Position numbers and translations under genes: made by a program. Below are positions 6,429-36,819 of a stretch of DNA of 36,920 nt, one piece after another. Source of the stretch: Candidatus Azobacteroides sp. GTDB lineage: Bacteria > Bacteroidota > Bacteroidia > Bacteroidales > Azobacteroidaceae. The DNA lies in the NCBI GenBank assembly GCA_009778655.1, contig WRFZ01000170.1, positions 1 through 36,920 of the forward strand, given 5' to 3'. Numbering within the stretch: the stretch's first letter is position 1; each line of letters opens with the position of its first letter. Below the pieces are notes generated by a model. That model made no database searches, was not told the DNA's origin, and saw only the letters and a list, made by a program, of their open reading frames with translations.

Positions 6429-8284
6429 AAAAAGAAAATTTGAATTGGGAAAAAAGAAGAAAATACATTACTTACGCTGTCGTTCTGCTTACAGTGGTTT
6501 ATATTTTGCAATTATTTAAACTGCAAATCATTGATAAAGACTATAAACAATGGGCGGATAGCAATGCTTTTTTAAATAGGAAAATATATCCTCCGCGCGG
6601 CGTGATGTACGACCGGAACGAGAAATTATTGGTTTACAATCAGCCGGCGTATGACGTCATGGTCATATTCCGCGAAACAAAACCGATGGATACGCTTGCT
6701 TTTTGCCGTGCCGTTAATCTTCCCATTGATAAATTTCGTCAAAAATTAGCGGACGTAAAAAATCAAAAACTTAACCCCGGATATTCATCCTATACTCCGC
6801 AATCATTTCTTACCCAATTGGGAAATAAAGAATACGGCATCTTGCAGGAGTCCATTTATAAATTTCCCGGATTTTACATTCAAAACCGGACGGTTCGAGA
6901 ATACAATTATCCCAATGCCGCTCATGTCTTGGGATACATTGCGGAAGTTGACAAGCAAAATTTGGCGGACGACAACTACTATATACGCGGAGATTATATC
7001 GGTAAATCCGGTATTGAAAAACAATACGAATCCTACTTGAGAGGAACCAAAGGGGTGGAAGTTTTACTGAGAGACGCGCACGGACGTATCAAAGGAAAAT
7101 ATGAAAACGGTATTCACGACCAAGATCCGATTGCGGGAAAAGATTTAACCCTTTCTCTTGACGTTGATTTGCAGGCTTACGGAGAAGAGCTGATGAAAAA
7201 CAAATTGGGAAGCATTATCATGATTGAACCGAAAACCGGCGAAATTTTGTGTATGGTTTCCTCCCCCACTTATGATCCTTCTATTTTGGTAGGAGGAAGG
7301 CAATTCAGCGAAAATTTTACGGAATTGGCAAACGACCCCTATATACCGCTTTTAAATCGGGCGCTCAACGGCTCTTATCCTCCCGGCTCCACGTTCAAGC
7401 CGCTGCAAGCTTTGGCTTTTTTGGAAGAAGATATTATTCAACCGAGCACCGCTTACTCATGCGCCCACGGATTTCCTCCCGGAAACGGGCATCCGGCCTG
7501 CCATAGCCATCCGTCGCCTTTAACCTTAGTCCCGGCGATTGGAAATTCATGCAATTCATACTTTTGTTGGGGATTAAAGGCCATGCTTGAAAATAAAAAA
7601 TACGGAACGATTCAAAATGCGATGAACAAATGGCGGGATTTAATGGTTGCTCAAGGTTACGGTCGCTCGCTGGGAATTGATTTACCGGGAGAGAAAAGGG
7701 GAAGTATTCCCAACGGAGAATTTTACGACAAACGCTACAAACGGTGGAATTCATTTACGGTCATATCCATTGCCATCGGTCAAGGGGAAGTGGAAGCTAC
7801 TCCGCTTCAAATTTGTAACTTTGCCGCAACGGTGGCAAACCGAGGTTATTATATTCCCCCCCATATTGTCAGGAAAATAAAAGATACACCCGTAGATCCG
7901 TTTTATACCCAACCAATATATACCGGAATAAATGCCGCGCATTACGAAACGGTTGCCAACGGAATGCGATGGGCGGTAGATGGTCCGGGCGGAACCTGTC
8001 GGGGAGCTGATATACCGGATATTGAAGTTTGCGGAAAAACGGGAACTGCCGAGAATAAAGGGAAGAGTCATTCGCTGTTTATGGCTTTTGCTCCGAAAGA
8101 TGATCCTAAAGTCGCCGTGTCAATTATCATTGAAAATGGAGGATGGGGCGCTACTTATGCGGTTCCTATCGGACGGTTGATGATTGAAAAATACTTGAAC
8201 GGGGCCATTGCCGAATCTTCCCGATGGATGGAAGAAAATATGAAGAATGCTGTAGTTTTGCGCAATGCCCTACCGAAAAAGTAA
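6425..8284 (+). CDS. mrdA: Penicillin-binding protein 2 (elongation transpeptidase)
   Basis: A 619-residue class B PBP, anchored by one membrane segment at about residues 15-34, that cross-links peptidoglycan during rod elongation. The dimerisation/pedestal region (YPPRGVMYDRN near 55-65) is followed by the transpeptidase domain with all three active-site motifs: S322-T-F-K (nucleophile Ser322), S375-C-N and K538-T-G. The start is GTG at 6425, overlapping the mreD stop by 4 bp. A Cys/His-rich stretch (CAHGFPPGNGHPACHSH, from about 350) just before the SxN motif resembles a metal-ligand cluster known in some PBP2 proteins. RodA, its glycosyltransferase partner, overlaps it downstream. Confidence 0.95.
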   Translation: MKKENLNWEKRRKYITYAVVLLTVVYILQLFKLQIIDKDYKQWADSNAFLNRKIYPPRGVMYDRNEKLLVYNQPAYDVMVIFRETKPMDTLAFCRAVNLPIDKFRQKLADVKNQKLNPGYSSYTPQSFLTQLGNKEYGILQESIYKFPGFYIQNRTVREYNYPNAAHVLGYIAEVDKQNLADDNYYIRGDYIGKSGIEKQYESYLRGTKGVEVLLRDAHGRIKGKYENGIHDQDPIAGKDLTLSLDVDLQAYGEELMKNKLGSIIMIEPKTGEILCMVSSPTYDPSILVGGRQFSENFTELANDPYIPLLNRALNGSYPPGSTFKPLQALAFLEEDIIQPSTAYSCAHGFPPGNGHPACHSHPSPLTLVPAIGNSCNSYFCWGLKAMLENKKYGTIQNAMNKWRDLMVAQGYGRSLGIDLPGEKRGSIPNGEFYDKRYKRWNSFTVISIAIGQGEVEATPLQICNFAATVANRGYYIPPHIVRKIKDTPVDPFYTQPIYTGINAAHYETVANGMRWAVDGPGGTCRGADIPDIEVCGKTGTAENKGKSHSLFMAFAPKDDPKVAVSIIIENGGWGATYAVPIGRLMIEKYLNGAIAESSRWMEENMKNAVVLRNALPKK

Positions 8285-9713
8285 TATATGGCTCAGTCTT
8301 GACTGGTGGACCGCAGCAATTTATCTGATAATGGTTATTGCCGGATGGATTAATATTTATGCTTCCGGTTACGATTTCGATCAAGTATCCATTTTTAATT
8401 TATCGGGCCGGGCCGGAATGCAAATGGTCTGGATTCTCACTTCGCTTCTCATAGGCTTTTCCATCCTAATGATTGACAGCGATTGGTACGATATCTTTGC
8501 GTATTGGATTTATGCTTTGGTTATCCTTTTATTAATCGCCACCATCCTCTTTTCACACGATATTCGAGGATCCCGTTCGTGGTTGGTTCTGGGACCTGTT
8601 CGTATCCAATCGGCTGAATTTGCCAAATTTGCCACCGCATTAGCTGTCGCTCGCTTGGCAAGTAATTACAATTTCGACTTGATGCGGATGAGAGATTTCA
8701 TCAAAATCCTGCCGATATTTTTCTTGCCGATGGCATTAATCTTGTTGCAAAAAGAAACCGGCACCGCTTTGGTCTTTCTGGCTTTTTTCTTGGTCTTGTA
8801 TCGCGAAGGAATGTCGGGATTCATCCTCTTCTCCGGATTCTGCGCCGTTCTGTTTTTTGTCATAGAAATTCGTTACGGAGATGTTTTGTGGGGAGGAACT
8901 CCTTTGGGAAAATGGATCGTGCTCTTACTGATCATTCCCTGCATCAGCTTTATATTGTACGATTATGAAAAAGGACGACAGTATATAAGATATTTTTTGA
9001 TCGGTTCCGGCGTCTTGGTAGGACTTGCCGTGCTTGTTTCCTTATTTTTCATTTATGATTTATGCTTCGTGGTATTGGCAATCATCGCAATAATTACGGC
9101 GGTATTATTGTTTTTATTTCTTAAATACAGAGAAAAACATTACCTGTACATTGTCGCCTTTGCACTTCTTTCCGTCGTTTTCATATATTCCGTGGATTAT
9201 GTTTTCGACGACGTGTTAGAGCCGCATCAAAAAGTAAGGATAGAAGTCGCTTTAGGAACCATTGACGACCCCGGTGGAGCCGGATACAACGTCAATCAAT
9301 CGAAAATCGCCATCGGTTCGGGCGGACTGTGGGGAAAAGGGTATTTAAACGGAACCCAGACCAAATTGAAATACGTGCCGGAACAAGATACCGACTTTAT
9401 CTTCTGTACGGTGGGAGAAGAACACGGATTTGTCGGATCGGTTTTTATTTTACTTCTGTTTTTATTTTTAATCACCCGGCTCATTTTTTTAGCCGAAAGA
9501 CAACGTTCTACTTTTAAACGAATTTACGGTTACAGTGTAGCTGCGATTATCTTTTTCCATTTACTGATTAATATCGGAATGGTAATAGGACTCACGCCGG
9601 TGATCGGAATCCCGTTGCCTTTTTTCAGCTACGGAGGGTCTTCTTTGTGGGGTTTTACCATACTTTTATTTATCTTCCTTCGTTTGGACGCATCAAGAAA
9701 TGAACGATTATAA
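8265..9713 (+). CDS. rodA: Rod shape-determining protein RodA (SEDS glycosyltransferase)
   Basis: A 482-residue polytopic SEDS-family membrane protein that polymerises lipid II into glycan strands with PBP2. Conserved features include GPVRIQSAEFAKFATAL (the family's Q-P/S-S/A-E-x-x-K region), the loop GSGGLWGKGYLNGTQTKLKYVPEQDTDFIF with the PEQ.TDFIF signature, and TPVIGIPLPFFSYGGSS near the C-terminus. At least ten hydrophobic segments are visible. It is somewhat longer than enterobacterial RodA because of an extra hydrophobic region at about 215-320, as I would expect in Bacteroidetes. The start ATG at 8265 lies 20 bp inside mrdA. It is the last gene of the operon; a 94-bp gap follows. Confidence 0.95.
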   Translation: MPYRKSNIWLSLDWWTAAIYLIMVIAGWINIYASGYDFDQVSIFNLSGRAGMQMVWILTSLLIGFSILMIDSDWYDIFAYWIYALVILLLIATILFSHDIRGSRSWLVLGPVRIQSAEFAKFATALAVARLASNYNFDLMRMRDFIKILPIFFLPMALILLQKETGTALVFLAFFLVLYREGMSGFILFSGFCAVLFFVIEIRYGDVLWGGTPLGKWIVLLLIIPCISFILYDYEKGRQYIRYFLIGSGVLVGLAVLVSLFFIYDLCFVVLAIIAIITAVLLFLFLKYREKHYLYIVAFALLSVVFIYSVDYVFDDVLEPHQKVRIEVALGTIDDPGGAGYNVNQSKIAIGSGGLWGKGYLNGTQTKLKYVPEQDTDFIFCTVGEEHGFVGSVFILLLFLFLITRLIFLAERQRSTFKRIYGYSVAAIIFFHLLINIGMVIGLTPVIGIPLPFFSYGGSSLWGFTILLFIFLRLDASRNERL

Positions 9714-9807
9714 CATTATTTAACTAATATTTTTTGTTATTCTTAATATTATTCCTTTTCTTTGTAGTCTTGAAAATGTACATAACATAAATTTTTATTG
9801 ATTTTTC

Positions 9808-10272
9808 ATGTTAGACAGAACACTTGTTATCCTTAAACCGTCTGCAATTCAAAGGGGGTTAATCGGCGAAATCATCCGTCGTTTCGAAAGAAAAGGTTTA
9901 TTACTCGCCGGACTGAAGATGGTTTGGTTAAACGATGAAATTTTGAGTGAACATTACGCACATCTGAAAGAGAAGCCTTTTTTCCAAAGGGTAAAAGATT
10001 CGATGAGAGTGTGTCCCGTTATTGTTTGCTGTTGGAAAGGAAAAGATGCTGCTCAGGTAGTCCGGACGCTTACGGGCATAACCAACAGTCGTGAAGCGTT
10101 GCCCGGAACTATTCGCGGCGACTTCAGTATGAGTATGCAGGAAAATATTTTACATGCATCAGATTCACCGGAAACGGCAGTTGTAGAATTACAACGGTTT
10201 TTCAATGAAGATGAATTGTTTGATTACAACATGAGCTTAATTTCAAATTTATACGCTAATAATGAAATATGA
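9808..10272 (+). CDS. ndk: Nucleoside diphosphate kinase
   Basis: A 154-residue kinase that transfers the gamma-phosphate from ATP to other (d)NDPs. It shows RTLVILKPSAIQRGLIGEII at the N-terminus, PGTIRGDF near 105 and the catalytic His116 in NILHASDSPE. Length is typical of the Bacteroidetes form. It follows a 94-bp AT-rich gap after rodA in which I see no exact promoter box. The M23 peptidase gene starts 27 bp downstream and may be cotranscribed. Confidence 0.96.
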   Translation: MLDRTLVILKPSAIQRGLIGEIIRRFERKGLLLAGLKMVWLNDEILSEHYAHLKEKPFFQRVKDSMRVCPVIVCCWKGKDAAQVVRTLTGITNSREALPGTIRGDFSMSMQENILHASDSPETAVVELQRFFNEDELFDYNMSLISNLYANNEI

Positions 10273-10299
10273 TTTTTATCGTATAGAAACAACAAATTA

Positions 10300-11241
10300 A
10301 TGAAACACATAAAAAACATTCGATTAGGAATTATACTTACTGCCCTGCTGACGTTCACTTTGAATACAACGTTTGCGCAAACTCACTCCGAAAGAGATTT
10401 AACTTCCGATGAAATAAAACGATTAACTACCGATCGTAAGTTGACGGCTGATAAAGTCACCACAAAAATGGAACTCGCCGTTATTGATTCAATACAAATG
10501 CAATATGAGCTGAATGAAGAAGCGGATGAGTTGTCTCCCGCCGACGAATTATATGATGGCGCTTGGAACAATCGGTATGTAAAAGCATACGCCAATATCT
10601 CGATTCCGGATTCGTTCCGGATTGATCTATCCAATTTCGTGATGCCGGTAGAAGGAAAAATAACATCGCCCTTCGGCCCTCGCAGAAGAAGATTCCATTA
10701 CGGAACCGACATCAAATTGCAAACAGGCGATACCGTTTACGCCGCATTCGATGGAAAAGTAAGAGTAAAACAATACGAAAGAAAAGGATACGGTTATTAT
10801 TTGGTACTTCGTCACCCCAACGGTTTGGAAACCGTTTACGGACATTTATCCCGATTCTTAGTAGAAGAAGGAGAATCCGTTGGCGCCGGTCAACCGATTG
10901 CCTTGGGCGGAAATACCGGACGTTCCACCGGTCCGCACTTGCATTTCGAATGCCGCTTCCTCGGACAAGCCATTGACCCGGCCGATATTGTTGACTTTGA
11001 TAATTTCTGCACTTTCGACGACTCGTATGTTTTCCAAAAATACAGAGTCAACGAAATCAGCATGCATAATAACAAATATACCGCATACGATCGAACCGTT
11101 CAATATCATCGCATACGGTCGGGCGATACATTGTCAATAATAGCCGGAAAATACGGAGTGTCGGTTAATCAGCTTTGTCGTTTGAACGGTCTTCGGCCGA
11201 CAAGTACTTTGAAAGTCGGAAGAGTTTTACGATGCTCATGA
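10300..11241 (+). CDS. Secreted M23 peptidase with LysM domain
   Basis: A 313-residue periplasmic peptidoglycan hydrolase or hydrolase activator. A signal peptide covers residues 1-26 and ends ...TTFAQ. The LytM/M23 domain at about 110-225 keeps the zinc ligands H133 and D137 (HYGTD) and H215, and H213 (HLHFE), so it should be catalytically active. A C-terminal LysM domain at about 268-311 (HRIRSGDTLSIIAGKYGVS...LNGL) binds glycan. The family includes EnvC/NlpD-like cell-division factors and cross-link endopeptidases. Position after the elongasome operon and ndk fits a role in wall growth, but substrate is not evident. Confidence 0.93.
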   Translation: MKHIKNIRLGIILTALLTFTLNTTFAQTHSERDLTSDEIKRLTTDRKLTADKVTTKMELAVIDSIQMQYELNEEADELSPADELYDGAWNNRYVKAYANISIPDSFRIDLSNFVMPVEGKITSPFGPRRRRFHYGTDIKLQTGDTVYAAFDGKVRVKQYERKGYGYYLVLRHPNGLETVYGHLSRFLVEEGESVGAGQPIALGGNTGRSTGPHLHFECRFLGQAIDPADIVDFDNFCTFDDSYVFQKYRVNEISMHNNKYTAYDRTVQYHRIRSGDTLSIIAGKYGVSVNQLCRLNGLRPTSTLKVGRVLRCS

Positions 11242-29092: not shown

Positions 29093-31642
29093 ATGAATAC
29101 CGGCAATTATCAAATTATAGTAAAGGGTAAAGATAAAACAAAAGAAATAATATCGTTTGAACCAAACGGCAATAGATTTGATATTAAATATTTATCGGGA
29201 GACAAAACATATTCGTATCTTGCAAAAGACGTTAAAATAATAAAATCGGCTTTACTTGACAATGCTGCAAAAAACATCTTTGACTACTTAAAAGAAATCG
29301 CACAGGAAGTTGGTTTGAAAGACGAAAAAGGCGGAAACATACTGTCAAATCGTTATGCGAAAATTGATTTCGTTAGCGAAAACAGTATGTTATCTGCATT
29401 TCTTACAGGGCATTTAAAATCGGAAAACAATAAAGAATCTCGTATTCCTATCTATCCGTTTGGTTTTAATGCAAGCCAAAAAGATGCCGTAAATAAAGCG
29501 CTTAACCATTCATTGAGTATTATAGAAGGACCACCCGGAACAGGTAAAACACAAATAATTCTCAACATTATCGCTAATGCCGTGATGTATGGCGAAAGTG
29601 TTGCGGTGGTATCAAGCAATAATTCCGCTACTAAAAATGTACTCGAAAAATTAGAAAAGAACAAAGCTGATTTTATTGCCGCCTATCTTGGAAGTTCGCA
29701 AAATAAAACAGATTTTATCAACTCGCAAAAGTCATTACCCGATTTTACGGAGTGGAAATTAGAGGAAGAAAACAAGCAACGCATCACCAAGACTTTACAA
29801 ACGCTTTTTTCTTACTTAAATACAATGCTATCAAAAAAGAATTATTTATCTTCATTGAAACGGGAATTATCGTCTTTTGAACTTGAATACCGATATTTTA
29901 AACAATACTACGACACATTAAATATTTCTATTTTCGACAAGTCGCTAAAAATAAATAACCCTGATAAAATATTGGAATTATGGTTGTTGTGTGAAAATTT
30001 CGGGTCATTCAATCAATTACAAAAATGGATAAAATTGCTTACGGTTCGTTTTAAATACGGTAGCCAATGTAAAGCGCTATTTTTACATTCGCTTGAAATA
30101 CTGATTGCTTTGTGCCAAAAACAATATTACGAAAAGAAAATAGAAGAAATAAATAAATCCATAAAATATATTGAAAATGAACTGAACAAGTTTGATTTTA
30201 ATAGAAAGATGAATGAGTATTCGGAACTTTCCATGAAAATTTTCCATGATAAACTCGCAAAAAAATATTCCACTAAAGACCGTATTAAATTTACGATTGA
30301 TGATTTATGGAAAAATTCAGAAGATTTTATTGAGGAATACTCGGTTGTGTTAAGTACAACCTATTCTTTGCGAAGCAGTTTATCAAATAAAACAATGTAT
30401 GATTATGTGATCATAGACGAGGCGTCGCAGGTTGACATTGCTACGGGAGCGCTTGCATTATCCTGTGCCGAAAAAGCGGTAATAGTGGGCGATTTAAAGC
30501 AACTTCCAAATGTTGTAACCGATGAAACCGCCCGAGAAACAGACCGGATTTTCTTAAAGTATAATATTCCGGAAGTATATCTCTATTCAAGTTACAATCT
30601 TTTACTTTCTTTGACAAAAATATTTCCCGATGCACCCAAAACCATGCTATGCGAACATTATCGTTGCCATCCGAAAATAATAGAATTTTGCAATCAAAAA
30701 TTTTACAATAACCGGTTAATTGTACTTACAGAGCCGAAATCGAATAGTAAACCGTTAATTTTGTATAAAACGGCGGAAGGTAATCACGCCCGAAATCGCG
30801 TTAATCAACGACAGATAGATGTGATAAAAAATGAAATTATTCCTCAACAAAAACTGAATACAGAAAACGGTTCGGTTGGAATTGTAACACCCTATCGAAA
30901 TCAAACCAATGCGTTGCAAGAAGCGTTTAAGAATACGCATATTAAAGCGGATACTGTAGATAAATTTCAAGGACAGGAAAATGATGTAATTATTCTTTCT
31001 ACTGTTGACAACGAAATTTCGAATTTCACCGACAACGCCAATCGTCTGAATGTTGCTGTTTCACGAGCCATTAACCAACTTATAGTCGTGGTAAACGGCA
31101 ATGACATAAAACGCGATACAAATATCGGCGACCTTGTTCGTTATATTGAGTACAATAATTTTGAAATTATACAAAGCGAAATTTATTCGGTATTTGATTT
31201 TTTGTATAAAAATTACGCGGAAAAACGTAATCAATTGCTAAAAAACAAGAAACGCATATCAAAATTTGATAGTGAAAATTTAATGTATCATGAAGTGATT
31301 TTAAAAGTTTTACAAGATGAACCTTTCAACCAATTCGATGCAGTTGTGCATTTTCCGTTGAGAATGATTTTAAATAATACGAAAAAACTCAACAACGAAG
31401 AGGTAAAATATGCTCTTAATGCGCTCACGCATATTGATTTTTTGATTTTTGATAAAATAGGAAAAGCGCCCCGATTGGCAATAGAAGTAGATGGCGGCAC
31501 ACATGAACAGGAAAAGCAGAAAAAACGAGATGAAATGAAAGATGCAATTTTAGAAAAATATAATATTCCGATTATCCGATTTAAAACAAACGAAAGCGGA
31601 GAAAAAGAAAAACTGATTCAAAAATTAAAACTGATAATCTGA
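29093..31642 (+). CDS. SF1 (UPF1/DNA2-like) helicase with C-terminal nuclease-like domain
   Basis: An 849-residue protein. After an N-terminal region of about 120 residues with no known motif, the helicase core shows Walker A GPPGTGKT (146-153), motif II DEAS (442-445) followed by GDLKQLP, motif III-IV YRCHPKI, IVTPYRNQ, and motifs V-VI FQGQENDVIILSTV...NVAVSRA, the UPF1/DNA2 signature. Helix-rich sequence (about 210-420) is inserted between motifs I and II. The C-terminal part (about 740-849) has D782 in IDFLIFD, then AIEVDGGTHE with E798 and D800 and a later RFKT, resembling very-short-patch/DUF559/DUF2726-type PD-(D/E)xK nucleases. Proteins of this build often sit in phage-defence islands. 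Substrate (DNA or RNA) is unknown. The gene begins the AT-rich island. Confidence 0.85.
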   Translation: MNTGNYQIIVKGKDKTKEIISFEPNGNRFDIKYLSGDKTYSYLAKDVKIIKSALLDNAAKNIFDYLKEIAQEVGLKDEKGGNILSNRYAKIDFVSENSMLSAFLTGHLKSENNKESRIPIYPFGFNASQKDAVNKALNHSLSIIEGPPGTGKTQIILNIIANAVMYGESVAVVSSNNSATKNVLEKLEKNKADFIAAYLGSSQNKTDFINSQKSLPDFTEWKLEEENKQRITKTLQTLFSYLNTMLSKKNYLSSLKRELSSFELEYRYFKQYYDTLNISIFDKSLKINNPDKILELWLLCENFGSFNQLQKWIKLLTVRFKYGSQCKALFLHSLEILIALCQKQYYEKKIEEINKSIKYIENELNKFDFNRKMNEYSELSMKIFHDKLAKKYSTKDRIKFTIDDLWKNSEDFIEEYSVVLSTTYSLRSSLSNKTMYDYVIIDEASQVDIATGALALSCAEKAVIVGDLKQLPNVVTDETARETDRIFLKYNIPEVYLYSSYNLLLSLTKIFPDAPKTMLCEHYRCHPKIIEFCNQKFYNNRLIVLTEPKSNSKPLILYKTAEGNHARNRVNQRQIDVIKNEIIPQQKLNTENGSVGIVTPYRNQTNALQEAFKNTHIKADTVDKFQGQENDVIILSTVDNEISNFTDNANRLNVAVSRAINQLIVVVNGNDIKRDTNIGDLVRYIEYNNFEIIQSEIYSVFDFLYKNYAEKRNQLLKNKKRISKFDSENLMYHEVILKVLQDEPFNQFDAVVHFPLRMILNNTKKLNNEEVKYALNALTHIDFLIFDKIGKAPRLAIEVDGGTHEQEKQKKRDEMKDAILEKYNIPIIRFKTNESGEKEKLIQKLKLII

Positions 31643-31945: not shown

Positions 31946-31971
31946 TTGCGTCACCGATTTGGGTGACGCAA
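31946..31971. repeat. 10-bp perfect hairpin before the transposase remnant
   Basis: TTGCGTCACC (31946-31955) pairs with GGTGACGCAA (31962-31971) around a 6-nt loop, 24 bp before the transposase ATG. It may belong to the left end of the insertion element or regulate its translation. Confidence 0.75.
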
Positions 31972-31983
31972 GCCAAAATGATG

Positions 31984-31991
31984 TATTTTTG
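31984..31991 (+). promoter_or_regulatory. -7 box-like sequence before the transposase remnant
   Basis: TATTTTTG fits TAnnTTTG but ends only 4 bp before the ATG at 31996, so a transcript from it would have almost no leader. It may be coincidental. Confidence 0.3.
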
Positions 31992-31995
31992 CGAC

Positions 31996-32877
31996 ATGTT
32001 TGTACGTAAAAAGAAAAACAGGTCAAGAACAACAAGTGCTGTTATAACAGATAAAAGCGGAGGTCGCTTCCGCGAGTTGCAAACTATCGGGGTCAGTTCT
32101 GATGAAAAAGAGATATCTGATTTCTATCAACAAGGCAAAAAGTGGATTAGCCATCATCGTGGCGATCGCGATATGTTCGCTATTATGGAAAAGGAACGGG
32201 AAGAGAAAGAAGTTACTGAACATTTATTGAATACTGTAGAAAACATCCTGCTGAATGGCATACAATTAATATTAAATCAAGTATCTAATCTTATAGGCTT
32301 CGCGGCAATAGAAGATGATATTTTGAAACATTTGGTCATATCAAGATTGTGTCAGCCAACTGGCAAATCGGGTACGATGGATTATCTAAAGTCATATTTT
32401 GATGAAGATATAAAATTGCACAAGATTTACAGGTATTTAGACCGTCTTTACAATACACAGCAAGAAAGCATCCAACAAATCAGCTTAGCGCATACCCGAA
32501 AGATTTTAGGGGGTAAAATAAGCCTTTTATTTTGCGATGTAACCACACGGATTTTTTCCAAGGATGGTAAGCATGCACAGCTACAAGTTGTCTTAGGTCT
32601 TCCGGTAAGTCGGGACGGTTATCCGCTGTCTTACTCGCTTTTCAACGGTTCTCAGTGTGAAGGCAAAACGATGATACCTGTAGTTGAAGATTTTGTACGT
32701 CGCTTTAATTTGGACGATTTTGTCATTGTAGCGGATTCCGGATTAATGAACAAAATCAATATATCTCTATTAGAATTTGGGAGATATAAATATATTATCG
32801 GAGCAAGAATCAAAAACGAAACGGAAGAAATCAAACAATGGATACGCTCATTAGACAATGAAACCGGCAAAATCTGA
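31996..32877 (+). pseudogene. Truncated IS1634-like (IS4-group DDE) transposase
   Basis: A 293-residue open frame beginning MFVRKKKNRSRTTSAVITDKSGG, the typical start of IS1634-family transposases in Bacteroidetes. It contains SLLFCDVTTRIFS (first catalytic Asp region, about residue 180) and DDFVIVADSGLMNK (second Asp region, about 245-255), then IIGARIKNETEEIKQWI. The frame stops at DNETGKI, roughly half the usual 550-600 residues, and the third catalytic Glu region is absent. The element is therefore a remnant with a lost 3' half. The longer frame from 31963 passes through the hairpin and is not preferred. Confidence 0.8.
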
Positions 32878-33251: not shown

Positions 33252-33323
33252 TGATGAATTTATGATGTATAAATAAAAAGTTTTTTCAAGAAAAAGCAAA
33301 CAGATATTATAAATAATAAATAT

Positions 33324-35347
33324 ATGAATAATTTAATTGAATTATTTCCTGCAGAATATCGAGACACAATTACTCGCTATAAAAACAATCTCTCTGATAT
33401 TTTTGACAAGTATGATGTGGCAATTTTTATGGCTCGCAAAGCAATATGTTTTTATAAAGCTCTTGTTTTAGAGAAATATTTGCAAAAGCCAACTCATTGC
33501 AAAGTTGTTTCAAGCCGTGTGCTTGATTATAACGTCTTTGATGACTTCAAAGGCAAAAAAATCATTGTTATTGATGATTTGTGGTACGCGGCGAGTCTCT
33601 GGCAAAAACCACGAAAATTTTGTCCGATAACAACATAAAAGCCGACGTGTATATTTTGGCATGCTCTGAAGATGCTTTCAACAATGGCACACTTGTTAAA
33701 CAAAACATAATTGAATCATATTCAATGTTGTCGGAAAATGATACATACATCCTGTCACAATATATAACAACTTTTATTGAAGCTGCAAAGTGTCCCTATA
33801 ATATAGATCAACCTATATACAGTTTAGAATATTCCACGGTTGAGGAGTTCGATATGCTTGTAAAAAATCTTAAAATGGTTGACATAACAAGTAATGTTCA
33901 GCGTGTGCATGGAATTGAAAGCTATGTGTTCAATGTTCCGAAAGAGGTAGTGCCGTGCGAAGATATTAAGTTAAAAATAGAATTGTGCAAAATTAGATTT
34001 TTATGCAAAAAAATAAATAATAAAGTATCTATTTTAGTTATTCCATTTGTGTTATTAAAGACATTAACATACAAGGAACTAGATACTTTTTTTGCTGCAC
34101 ATATACGAACGAAGAAGATTATTCAGTTTATTGATAATAAGAATAAGTATATCTTTAGCGAAAATAAATTAAAAGTTTTACATTTCATTCTTGCTGTGAA
34201 GTTAATGCGTTTATTTTCTAATGTTGCTAAAATAAGTGGACTGAATCGACTTTGTGGAAATGACGACTTCGTTTTTGCCACAAATATAGAGAAATTCTTT
34301 TCTGATTCAGAGGAGAAGTCCACACTAAATTTTAGCGACATAAAAGATCCTTCATTTGACTCGTTTTTGCAAAATGAGTATATTAGTCTAACTTATGATT
34401 TTCTTATTTCAGTTAAAGATGAAACAAAGTATAATGACGCAGAAGATAAGAAAATAAGGGGGCCATTGCTAATTTTAACAGAATTAAAAGATTTCATTGC
34501 ATCAAAAACCAAAACGAATGACATTGATATTTTAATGTTTTCTAATGTTATTGATATTTTTATTGACAGAGGATTAATTATTCCTTCTATTGTGCATTTT
34601 GAAAATACAATCGTTCGCGGATATAAATGTGGTGAAGTTTATCATATAGGAGAAGAACATTTTCGTCTTTTTGCTTTTGTCCTTAGCCAGTACTCCGGTT
34701 TCATTAATCGTGATTTGTATAAAACTGAAATGGAAAAGCTATGTGTACTTTTTTTTAGAGAGGCTGCACAAAAACGGTTAATTCCCTATGGGGAAGCGAG
34801 TGGAGGGGAAGATGAGTATAGCATTTGTTATTCTAAATTTGGTCCACGTGTTTCAACAAGTAAACCAATTTATAGTGCATCTGAAGATTCAGTTTTACTT
34901 TCCCAATTGTTTAATCTCCAATATATAAAAAAACCAGCAGGTAGAAATCCTAAAGTTTTAGGTGACAGGATTGAACCCGGCTATCAAATTTTGAATGAGG
35001 GTTTTTTGAAACCATTTGAATCTAATTGGCAAAATAGATCTACTATATTTGCACGCAAATATTCTGTATTACAGAAAGCTTACGACAAGGTACGCGAGTA
35101 TAGCGGATATCTTATAAGTTCATACATTAAATTACTTACAATGTTATCAATTGGTCTTAATCAAAGAGATCAATTGCTGTCATTACTGGCAGAAGTTTAC
35201 TTGTTTAAAACTGTACGAACCAATGATGACGATATAAGAAACATTTTGCGGGATTGTAATAGAATACTTGATGGCATTACAAGCGGAATGTGGAAGTATA
35301 TGTGCTATACTATAGTTCAAAGACACATCCCTTGGAAAAATTGCTAA
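33324..35347 (+). pseudogene. Phosphoribosyltransferase-type conflict protein, frameshifted near 33585-33590
   Basis: Two overlapping frames (33324-33638 and 33581-35347) make up one gene of about 674 codons. The first gives a PRTase-like start (VAIFMARKAICFYKALVLEKYL, then KIIVIDDLWY, the acidic PRPP loop). The loop continues only in the -1 frame as GESLAKTTKILSDNNIKADVYILAC. Restoring one base near TACGCGGC gives DDLWY-R/A-GESLAKT, a normal PRPP site. The remaining 490 or so residues are Lys/Ile/Phe-rich and helical; I recognise no domain. The layout resembles the PRTase-CE class of predicted prokaryotic conflict systems. The end (WKYMCYTIVQRHIPWKNC) overlaps the next gene by 58 bp and may mark a second frameshift. 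AT-rich, unlike the core genes. Confidence 0.7.
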
Positions 35348-36657
35348 ATGAACTTATATATAATGACGATGAAACTATCCGCGCGATAGATGTAATTGTT
35401 AGCGACATCATTGATGCAAACCCCAATATTGATAAAAACCCCAATATTAAAAAATTGATAGATGCAAGTGGAAATTTAATATTTGATGTAGCTTATGTTG
35501 TGCATTTTCTCTGCGAAAAGTACAACATAAGATGTGCGATTGATTACGAAAATTTTAATAAGCGCGAATTTTATGAGCATAGCATGCGACCAAAAAGGAA
35601 AAACTTTGAAGAACGACTTAGTGCAAGTACACACAATGATGACTTGATTTTGTTGCGAGATTTGCATCAATCTGCTACGCAATTACTCAAAGATTACGAA
35701 AAAAATGTTCAAAATGGTGCACCAAAAAATGAGAATGCCATAACAAGGGAAGCTCCGAGTCCGATTATGCCGCCTGCTAATGAGAATGCCATAACAATTG
35801 GGATCGTTACTGCGTTGCCAATTGAATTTGCAGCAATGGAAACAATGTTACAAAACCCAAAACTACCAAAAGAAATACCTGTTGGCGACCCAAATGATTA
35901 TAAAATTGGGACAATAGAAACAAAAAGAGGGAAAAATGTGAGTATAATACTTGCTTGTTTGAAAGAAATAGGAACAAACAACGCATCAAGTGTTACAATA
36001 CATATGTTACGTACTTTTCCTGAAATAGATGAAGTAGTCCTCGTTGGAATTGCGGGTGGAATTCCTTGTCCCACAGATTCAAAAAATCATGTAAGATTAG
36101 GAGACATTGTTTGCTCTGATAGCATCCTTCAGTATGATAATATTAAAGAAGAAGACGATGACGTAAAAATTAGAAGTAACGCAGATAAGCCATCGGCTCT
36201 AATGAAAGGCAAATATAATTTATTAGAAAGTGATGTTTATTACTTAGATAGATATCCATGGGAAGATTATATCGATGATACTATATCTTCACATGATATC
36301 TTTAAAAGGCCAAGTGAAACTAACGATATTTTAGAAATTAATGGAATTGAAACTACTCATCCTATAGATAAAAGGAGAAGAAATGGGAAACCACGTGTTT
36401 TTATGGGTAAAATTGGTTCGGCTAATACCCTCTTAAAGAATGAAACAAAAAGAGACTATTTAAGAGATAATTTTGGGTGTAGAGCTATAGAGATGGAGAG
36501 TGCTGGCGTTGCAGACGGTACTTGGAGTTGTAATAAATCGTATTTTGTTGTTAGAGGAATTGTTGATTATTGTAATCCATCAAAAGGGGATATTTGGCAT
36601 GGTTATGCTGCATTATGTGCCGCAGCTTATACCAAATCTTTGATAGAGTTATTTTAG
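35290..36657 (+). CDS. PNP/MTAN-type nucleosidase with N-terminal helical domain
   Basis: A 455-residue frame. Residues about 165-455 form a purine-nucleoside phosphorylase/MTA-SAH nucleosidase domain: IGIVTALPIEFAAM, VVLVGIAGGIP near 250-258, AIEMESAG with the ribose-binding Glu near 403, and VVRGIVDYCN with the catalytic-type Asp426. An insertion of about 80 residues follows LGDIV. Domains of this fold act as nucleotide-degrading effectors in defence, for example the ATP nucleosidase of Detocs. The first 140 residues are helical and unassigned, joined by a linker with a duplicated NENAIT. The only upstream start is GTG 35290 (or TTG codons later), 58 bp inside the previous gene; no ATG exists near the N-terminus. 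It may therefore be the C-terminal part of one PRTase-nucleosidase protein split by a frameshift. Confidence 0.8.
   Translation: MEVYVLYYSSKTHPLEKLLNELIYNDDETIRAIDVIVSDIIDANPNIDKNPNIKKLIDASGNLIFDVAYVVHFLCEKYNIRCAIDYENFNKREFYEHSMRPKRKNFEERLSASTHNDDLILLRDLHQSATQLLKDYEKNVQNGAPKNENAITREAPSPIMPPANENAITIGIVTALPIEFAAMETMLQNPKLPKEIPVGDPNDYKIGTIETKRGKNVSIILACLKEIGTNNASSVTIHMLRTFPEIDEVVLVGIAGGIPCPTDSKNHVRLGDIVCSDSILQYDNIKEEDDDVKIRSNADKPSALMKGKYNLLESDVYYLDRYPWEDYIDDTISSHDIFKRPSETNDILEINGIETTHPIDKRRRNGKPRVFMGKIGSANTLLKNETKRDYLRDNFGCRAIEMESAGVADGTWSCNKSYFVVRGIVDYCNPSKGDIWHGYAALCAAAYTKSLIELF
35728..35797 (+). repeat. 19-bp direct repeat in the linker of the nucleosidase gene
   Basis: AATGAGAATGCCATAACAA occurs at 35728-35746 and 35779-35797, 51 bp apart and in frame, encoding NENAIT twice around a Pro-rich linker just before the nucleosidase domain. 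Confidence 0.9.
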
Positions 36658-36732: not shown

Positions 36733-36744
36733 GTGATTTTCAAG

Positions 36745-36819
36745 TGGGCGTTGACGGATTCGAACCGCCGACCCTCTGCTTGTAAGGCAGATGCTCTGAA
36801 CCAGCTGAGCTAAACGCCC
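36745..36819 (-). tRNA. tRNA-Val (anticodon UAC)
   Basis: A 75-nt cloverleaf on the minus strand: acceptor GGGCGTT/AACGCCC, D-arm GCTC...GAGC, anticodon stem TCTGC/GCAGA around loop CTTACAA (anticodon TAC), T-arm GGCGG-TTCGAAT-CCGTC, discriminator A. CCA is not encoded. Its 3' end points towards the accessory island, as at many integration sites. Confidence 0.97.

Follow-up and report, generated by a model that had tools for sequence, protein, structure and literature searches.

One gene in three reading frames

We lean towards reading positions 33324–36657 of the window (the whole stretch of DNA analysed, 36,920 nt) as one gene, interrupted twice by frame breaks in the assembly, that encodes a single-chain sensor–effector conflict protein. 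Its product would most likely be a rare single-gene abortive-infection protein, with a defence activity that we infer.

ORF calling divides this region into three overlapping frames at 33324–33638 (104 aa), 33581–35347 (588 aa), and 35290–36657 (455 aa), which fit exactly the coordinates of the initial annotation. A phosphoribosyltransferase (PRTase) signature is spread over the first two ORFs, and a nucleosidase makes up the third. The former had been described as a PRTase start, 'IDDLWY...GESLAKT'. A PRPP loop and a PRTase-like start are indeed present, but not in one frame of the window: 'IDDLWY' belongs to the first ORF and 'GESLAKT' to the second. Joining the two across frames was nevertheless right, because in a relative, L003, IDDFVVRGES is read without a change of frame.

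L003 was the sole match in a pattern scan of genome contigs with the 588-aa window piece and stems from a Paludibacter MAG (WQYU01000003.1). Its single 1090-aa ORF (7743–11015) covers all three window pieces, with identities of 94.0, 80.2, and 80.1% in piece order, and comprises a PRTase-like N-terminus, a middle region of about 500 aa without family, and a C-terminal PNP/MTAN-type nucleosidase. The blastn alignment of the two loci (84.6% identity, 3361 columns, window 33303–36656) runs from 21 bases before the start codon to inside the stop codon, and the flanking DNA is not common to both. A match that begins and ends with the gene is, judging from the alignment, not chance. As the homology is limited to the gene and L003 has one open frame, the window holds one gene with two frame breaks (Table 1).

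Together with three further relatives the group has five members. L004 (genome G160, of the same phylum as the window genome and another order) is a 1319-aa ORF in which PNP was matched at profile positions 1–105 of 233 only. L016 (genome G928, same class) is a 1445-aa ORF with the order PRTase-middle-PNP. L009 (genome G427, same genus) is a 1120-aa ORF with PRTase and middle parts followed by another C-terminus without assigned family.

The initial annotation had proposed two adjacent genes acting as a working pair. ORF calling alone does give separate ORFs, but L003, L004, and L016, i.e., three of the four relatives, carry both parts in one frame (PNP being incomplete in L004), so that we are dealing with one protein; these fused relatives refute the gene pair, to which we assign a negligible probability. 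Likewise, the 'own N-terminal helical domain' ascribed to a separate nucleosidase gene corresponds to the linker of L003 and is part of the same polypeptide.

Table 1. Features of the window and of the split gene (positions in the window)
Feature	Position	Strand	Remarks and evidence
SF1 helicase, 849 aa, C-terminal DUF2726	29093–31642	+	Neighbour; Pfam, PADLOC, NCBIfam
Truncated IS1634 family transposase	31963–32877	+	E 9.1e-41, model positions 4–257 of 483
Whole gene: PRTase-like/middle/linker/PNP nucleosidase	33324–36657	+	One ORF in L003, three frames here; ORFs, L003 ORF, alignment, blastn
PRTase-like part (L003 residues 1–170), PRPP-loop motif	33324–33832	+	First frame break ~33581–33590; ORFs, alignment; end from alignment arithmetic
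Middle region (L003 residues 171 to ~663)	33833–35313	+	No family found; second frame break ~35288–35314; profile scans
Linker between middle and PNP	35314–35793	+	Alignment
PNP/MTAN-type nucleosidase domain	35794–36654	+	PF01048 E 1.1e-15; PDLC00759 E 7.7e-19; MTAN chains
tRNA-Val (tac)	36744–36819	-	Neighbour

Programmed frameshifting is unlikely as an explanation for the three frames because L003 reads through in one uninterrupted frame. The full protein is probably not made from the window sequence unless the breaks are assembly errors, and the broken gene may have no product. The window contig is one of 182 contigs of a genome that is 89.6% complete.

Directly in front of the PNP domain, the linker contains an exact 19-base direct repeat (35728–35746 and 35779–35797, + strand), its copies 51 bases apart. 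The window exceeds L003 by 17 aa at this point, as if by an in-frame duplication.

Selection on the split gene

Between the window and L003 the three pieces have dN/dS values of 0.12, 0.36, and 0.175. When the changes were polarised with L009 or L016 as outgroup, 0, 7, and 10 changes were assigned to the window and 1, 15, and 15 to L003 (4, 84, and 33 unresolved), so that the window has not accumulated more changes than L003. Purifying selection in combination with the lacking excess argues that the frame breaks either arose very recently or are errors of assembly. We consider the chances even that the gene is no more than a dead remnant in this genome: two frame breaks occur within 3.3 kb and a truncated transposase adjoins the gene, but the pieces are otherwise open, and the dN/dS values and the distribution of the changes speak against decay.

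The PRTase-like N-terminus

The PRPP-loop motif was found by pattern in all four relatives; in the window it is interrupted by the frame break. The identification as PRTase rests on this loop, and we infer the fold beyond it. Pieces of 201 aa from the N-termini gave matches below cut-off to Pfam Pribosyltran (L003 0.0011, L004 0.0054, L016 0.059) and to PRTase-CE, PF24390 (0.0024, 0.0022, and 0.015, respectively). With PADLOC, the retron model PRTase_III-A was matched by the same three of the four PRTase pieces (4.2e-5, 5.2e-4, and 7.9e-5) and ShosT by the L003 piece only (2.7e-4); these matches comprise 40–80 residues, little beyond the PRPP loop. The L009 piece matched neither Pribosyltran nor PRTase-CE in Pfam and nothing in PADLOC. 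With full-length queries PADLOC returned a PRTase match for L003 alone, no family for L004 and L009, and only PNP models for L016. Neither of the window's own two PRTase pieces matched a family in Pfam, PADLOC, or NCBIfam. Among PDB sequences, the PRPP loop of an amidophosphoribosyltransferase was matched best (E 0.026). A SAVED model matched residues 64–119 only of the L003 PRTase piece (E 0.008). The predicted structure of L003 with the window pieces had a mean pLDDT of 30.2, too low for use.

PRTase-CE was considered as the family of the N-terminus, given the Pfam matches in three of the four pieces, and was rejected. The best score was 18.4 bits compared with a cut-off of 27, and the profile–profile comparison (hhalign) gave a probability of 2.8%, under the values for comparison sequences that we take to be ComF-like (70%) and PyrR-like (37%). 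The PRTase-CE set in this comparison consisted of five of the six strong loci (L025, L026, L028, L029, and L030; L027 was left out), and L033, L035, L036, and L037 were also omitted. L031, L032, and L034, which score marginally over the PRTase-CE cut-off, were treated from their sequences as other PRTases; L031 reached 3.3%.

The PNP/MTAN-type nucleosidase

The nucleosidase named in the initial annotation was confirmed: PNP_UDP_1 (PF01048) matches residues 169–430 of the 455-aa ORF with 58.1 bits, above the curated cut-off of 25.1. The family was also matched in L003, L016, and, incompletely, L004, whereas no PNP was found in L009 by Pfam at E values up to 10. With E values up to 0.1 admitted, a profile of three PNP domains retrieved 40 sequences from the PDB, namely 38 of MTAN type (best 1.7e-6) and two of eIF3D. 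The EME (Glu) and Asp motifs, whose Glu and Asp we take to be the catalytic residues, align with MTAN chains in three printed alignments and are invariant in the window, L003, and L016. By its family membership the domain would cut N-glycosidic bonds. In PADLOC the PN-superfamily effector model PDLC00759 scored about equally well (Table 1) as general MTAN models (1.1e-16).

An ordinary housekeeping MTAN was rejected, in keeping with the first reading of the sequence: the domain scored 61.1 bits versus an NCBIfam equivalog cut-off of 169, and the genome contains two other, higher-scoring PF01048 matches, one of them with an internal stop.

PNP effectors of the Cap17 type are listed for CBASS, Detocs, pAgo, DRT8, and NLR-like systems with (d)ATP degradation and cell death (PMC10952713), and synthesis of second messengers has been predicted for PNP (PMC7159879). 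The protein described here resembles CBASS SAVED-PNP, Detocs, and NLR-like PNP proteins in that a PNP-superfamily nucleosidase is fused to a sensor part; the comparison also draws on the match to the PN-superfamily model and on a Nostoc plasmid relative, a SAVED protein adjoining a CBASS cyclase (tblastn 8e-11). It differs from them in its sensor, which would consist of the PRTase-like part and a middle without assigned family, and in the C-terminal position of the PNP. By eye, no cyclase was seen next to the window gene or among the ORFs listed for the four relatives.

The middle region

No family was found for the middle region (~500 aa) in profile scans of the window and its relatives. A conserved stretch, D...DxGxIxP...RxYxxGE, could represent a winged helix, for which no library match gave support.

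STAND/Avs-like NTPases are large single chains with exchangeable effectors. Those with a PNP effector are similar to our protein in just these two respects, but a Walker A motif was found by pattern in none of the four relatives, on which ground a STAND NTPase was rejected, and no NTPase family was matched in the relatives' proteins in Pfam. A tentative extension of our reading is that these proteins form a rare, NTPase-free class of bacterial immune receptors, in which the PRTase-like part and a dedicated middle would replace the STAND-type switch, sense that PRPP or nucleotides change during infection, and drive exchangeable C-terminal effectors including PNP.

Distribution of the gene

Genomes with a match were rare: 2 of 395 in the phylum (searched with a single protein), 2 of 395 in the class, 2 of 340 in a second search of the phylum, 1 of 393 in the order, 2 of 58 among relatives, 2 of 38 in the genus, 1 of 123 in the order of G160, and 1 of 1 in the order of G928. 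The window's own genome is counted in all samples except the last two; the samples overlap, and the counts are not additive. Relatives of the PRTase part were found neither in plasmids (queries: window piece, L004, L009) nor in phages (queries: L003, PNP part). L016 as query matched 30 plasmid records, and among the 20 matches listed all were to its PNP part. Viral contigs yielded no relatives in short-pattern scans, which are suited to close relatives.

This rarity bears on a possible role as bifunctional nucleotide-salvage enzyme, in which the PNP would free a base and the PRTase would put it on PRPP, as the two enzyme families are generally known to do in metabolism. Salvage enzymes are seldom so rare, and further points against this role are the middle of 500 aa without assigned family, the absence of PNP from L009, the other PNP genes in the window genome, and the differing surroundings of the window gene and L003. 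We regard salvage as improbable.

A proposed constant sensor and exchangeable effector

The putative sensor is preserved between L003 and L009 (31.7% identity, 755 columns), which have different C-termini. Between L003 and L016 the PNP is 52% identical and the sensor 26% over 522 columns, a difference that could be caused by slower evolution of the PNP. The synonymous divergence (dS) between the window and L003 is 0.27 (0.22–0.34) for residues 1–665 and 0.77 (0.57–1.05) for residues 801–1090. This almost threefold rise is situated near the middle/effector border: in bins of 75 residues dS goes from 0.29 (601–675) to 0.59 (676–750). The jump suggests a boundary of recombination that separates sensor from effector and lies near the second frame break; another possible cause is codon constraint. 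The C-terminus of L009 and the dS jump are what one would expect if a constant sensor were combined with exchangeable effectors. As there are five members only, the case for effector exchange is based on L009 as single example and on this one jump.

The sensing role is given to the PRTase-like part because it is the constant part. The reverse assignment, according to which the PRTase-like part would be the toxic effector and the PNP would supply a free base or a signal in a cycle wasting PRPP and nucleotides, appears unlikely to us, if less so than salvage; a toxic role has been proposed for the PRTases of retrons and DprA-PRTase systems. It draws on the PRTase_III-A and ShosT models, which PADLOC matched best to the PRTase piece, and on the second-messenger synthesis predicted for PNP. 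Furthermore, a DprA-PRTase system is described as protective against the phages T7 and lambda, and PRTases of retrons are regarded as probable effectors, their mode of action and that of the PRTase in the DprA system being given as not established (PMC9122126); PRTase/WH effectors are mentioned for type III retrons (PMC12548924). Against it, the PADLOC matches span little more than the PRPP loop, and a constant PRTase-like part with a variable C-terminus is the arrangement usual for sensor and effector, respectively. While type III retron PRTases and ShosT/DprA-PRTase share with our protein the matches in the PRPP-loop region and are PRTases in phage defence, the PRTase here is the N-terminus of a chain of 1090–1445 aa with PNP. 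Neither a reverse transcriptase nor DprA was seen by eye beside the gene in the ORF lists of the window and the four relatives.

Genomic neighbourhood

The initial annotation had placed the gene in an AT-rich island beside a tRNA, and both statements were borne out: the GC content in 1-kb bins is 0.304–0.341 at 33–36 kb compared with 0.347–0.458 in the first 29 kb, and the tRNA-Val gene lies downstream (Table 1). Of the 'restriction and mobility remnants' the mobility part stands with the truncated IS1634 transposase; the upstream gene turned out to be an SF1 helicase with DUF2726 and is not a recognised restriction–modification gene. The best PADLOC match of the helicase was MkoA (4e-55), several NCBIfam anti-phage helicases matched below cut-off, and it is possibly a separate defence gene. 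A tRNA-borne element was considered and rejected: the 20-base tRNA end occurs once in the window, and no integrase was seen by eye.

Downstream of L016 lies a PDC-S42 gene, a PADLOC defence candidate (2.9e-122). Upstream of L004 a transposase-like gene was seen by eye; the L004 locus also gave a weak HamA match (4.7e-4). Three genes precede the PRTase relative at L009 (L009:45–3826, + strand); two encode proteins of 638 and 246 aa without family, and the third, about 1 kb upstream, belongs to DUF2971 (3.9e-7) with a weak PDC-S31 match (1.1e-4). A methylase-like gene, read from its NPPY motif, lies further away from L003; Pfam found no family there. No companion gene common to the loci was seen. 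From these neighbours the defence context appears clear at one of the five loci (L016), suggestive in the window, and weak at the others. By eye, no metabolic operon surrounds any of the four relatives, as expected from the initial annotation, with the reservation that the neighbours of L003 are housekeeping-like and that purH/purN-like genes lie about 4 kb from L016.

Proposed mode of action

In the single-chain sensor–effector protein that we favour, the PRTase-like part, which would probably bind PRPP or a nucleotide, and the middle region would act as sensor and switch, keeping the effector off. Upon infection, a trigger assumed by analogy, the PNP domain would remove the base of purine nucleotides in the manner of the Cap17-type effectors, which are listed as degrading (d)ATP, so that the infected cell would no longer support the phage. 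If the defence reading is true, nucleotide destruction may in this way protect the bacterial population from viruses.

PNP nucleosidases serve repeatedly as effectors of diverse sensors. In the present case the sensing role would fall to a PRTase-like module, encoded in one gene with the nucleosidase and scoring above no Pfam or NCBIfam cut-off (NCBIfam: window pieces). A PRTase-like part and a nucleosidase in one chain would make the role of PRTases in defence directly testable in one protein. Read as a fused protein instead of a gene pair, the feature is real and would add a further form to the PNP-effector conflict systems. A recognisable description of a PRTase-PNP fusion protein was not found in the open-licence literature; DefensePredictor, as excerpted, contains a predicted, unvalidated purine phosphorylase domain and mentions PRTase in a legend (PMC13092281), and an overlap with these predictions is possible.

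PNP relatives on plasmids

A tblastn search of plasmids with the PNP part matched seven records, of which five were examined (Sinorhizobium, Nostoc, Calothrix, Mycetohabitans, and Leptolyngbya). On the Sinorhizobium plasmid (L020:5752–6841, + strand) the PNP domain is divided between two frames and shares 33% identity with that of the window; an IS110 transposase immediately precedes it, and no PRTase match was obtained. The Leptolyngbya plasmid (L024:4158–7055, + strand) encodes a protein with two PNP-matching stretches followed by genes annotated as TPR proteins. Finally, the PNP domain of L016 is matched by the Agrobacterium plasmid proteins H10–H22, most of which carry the annotation HNH endonuclease; they possibly represent another PNP fusion.
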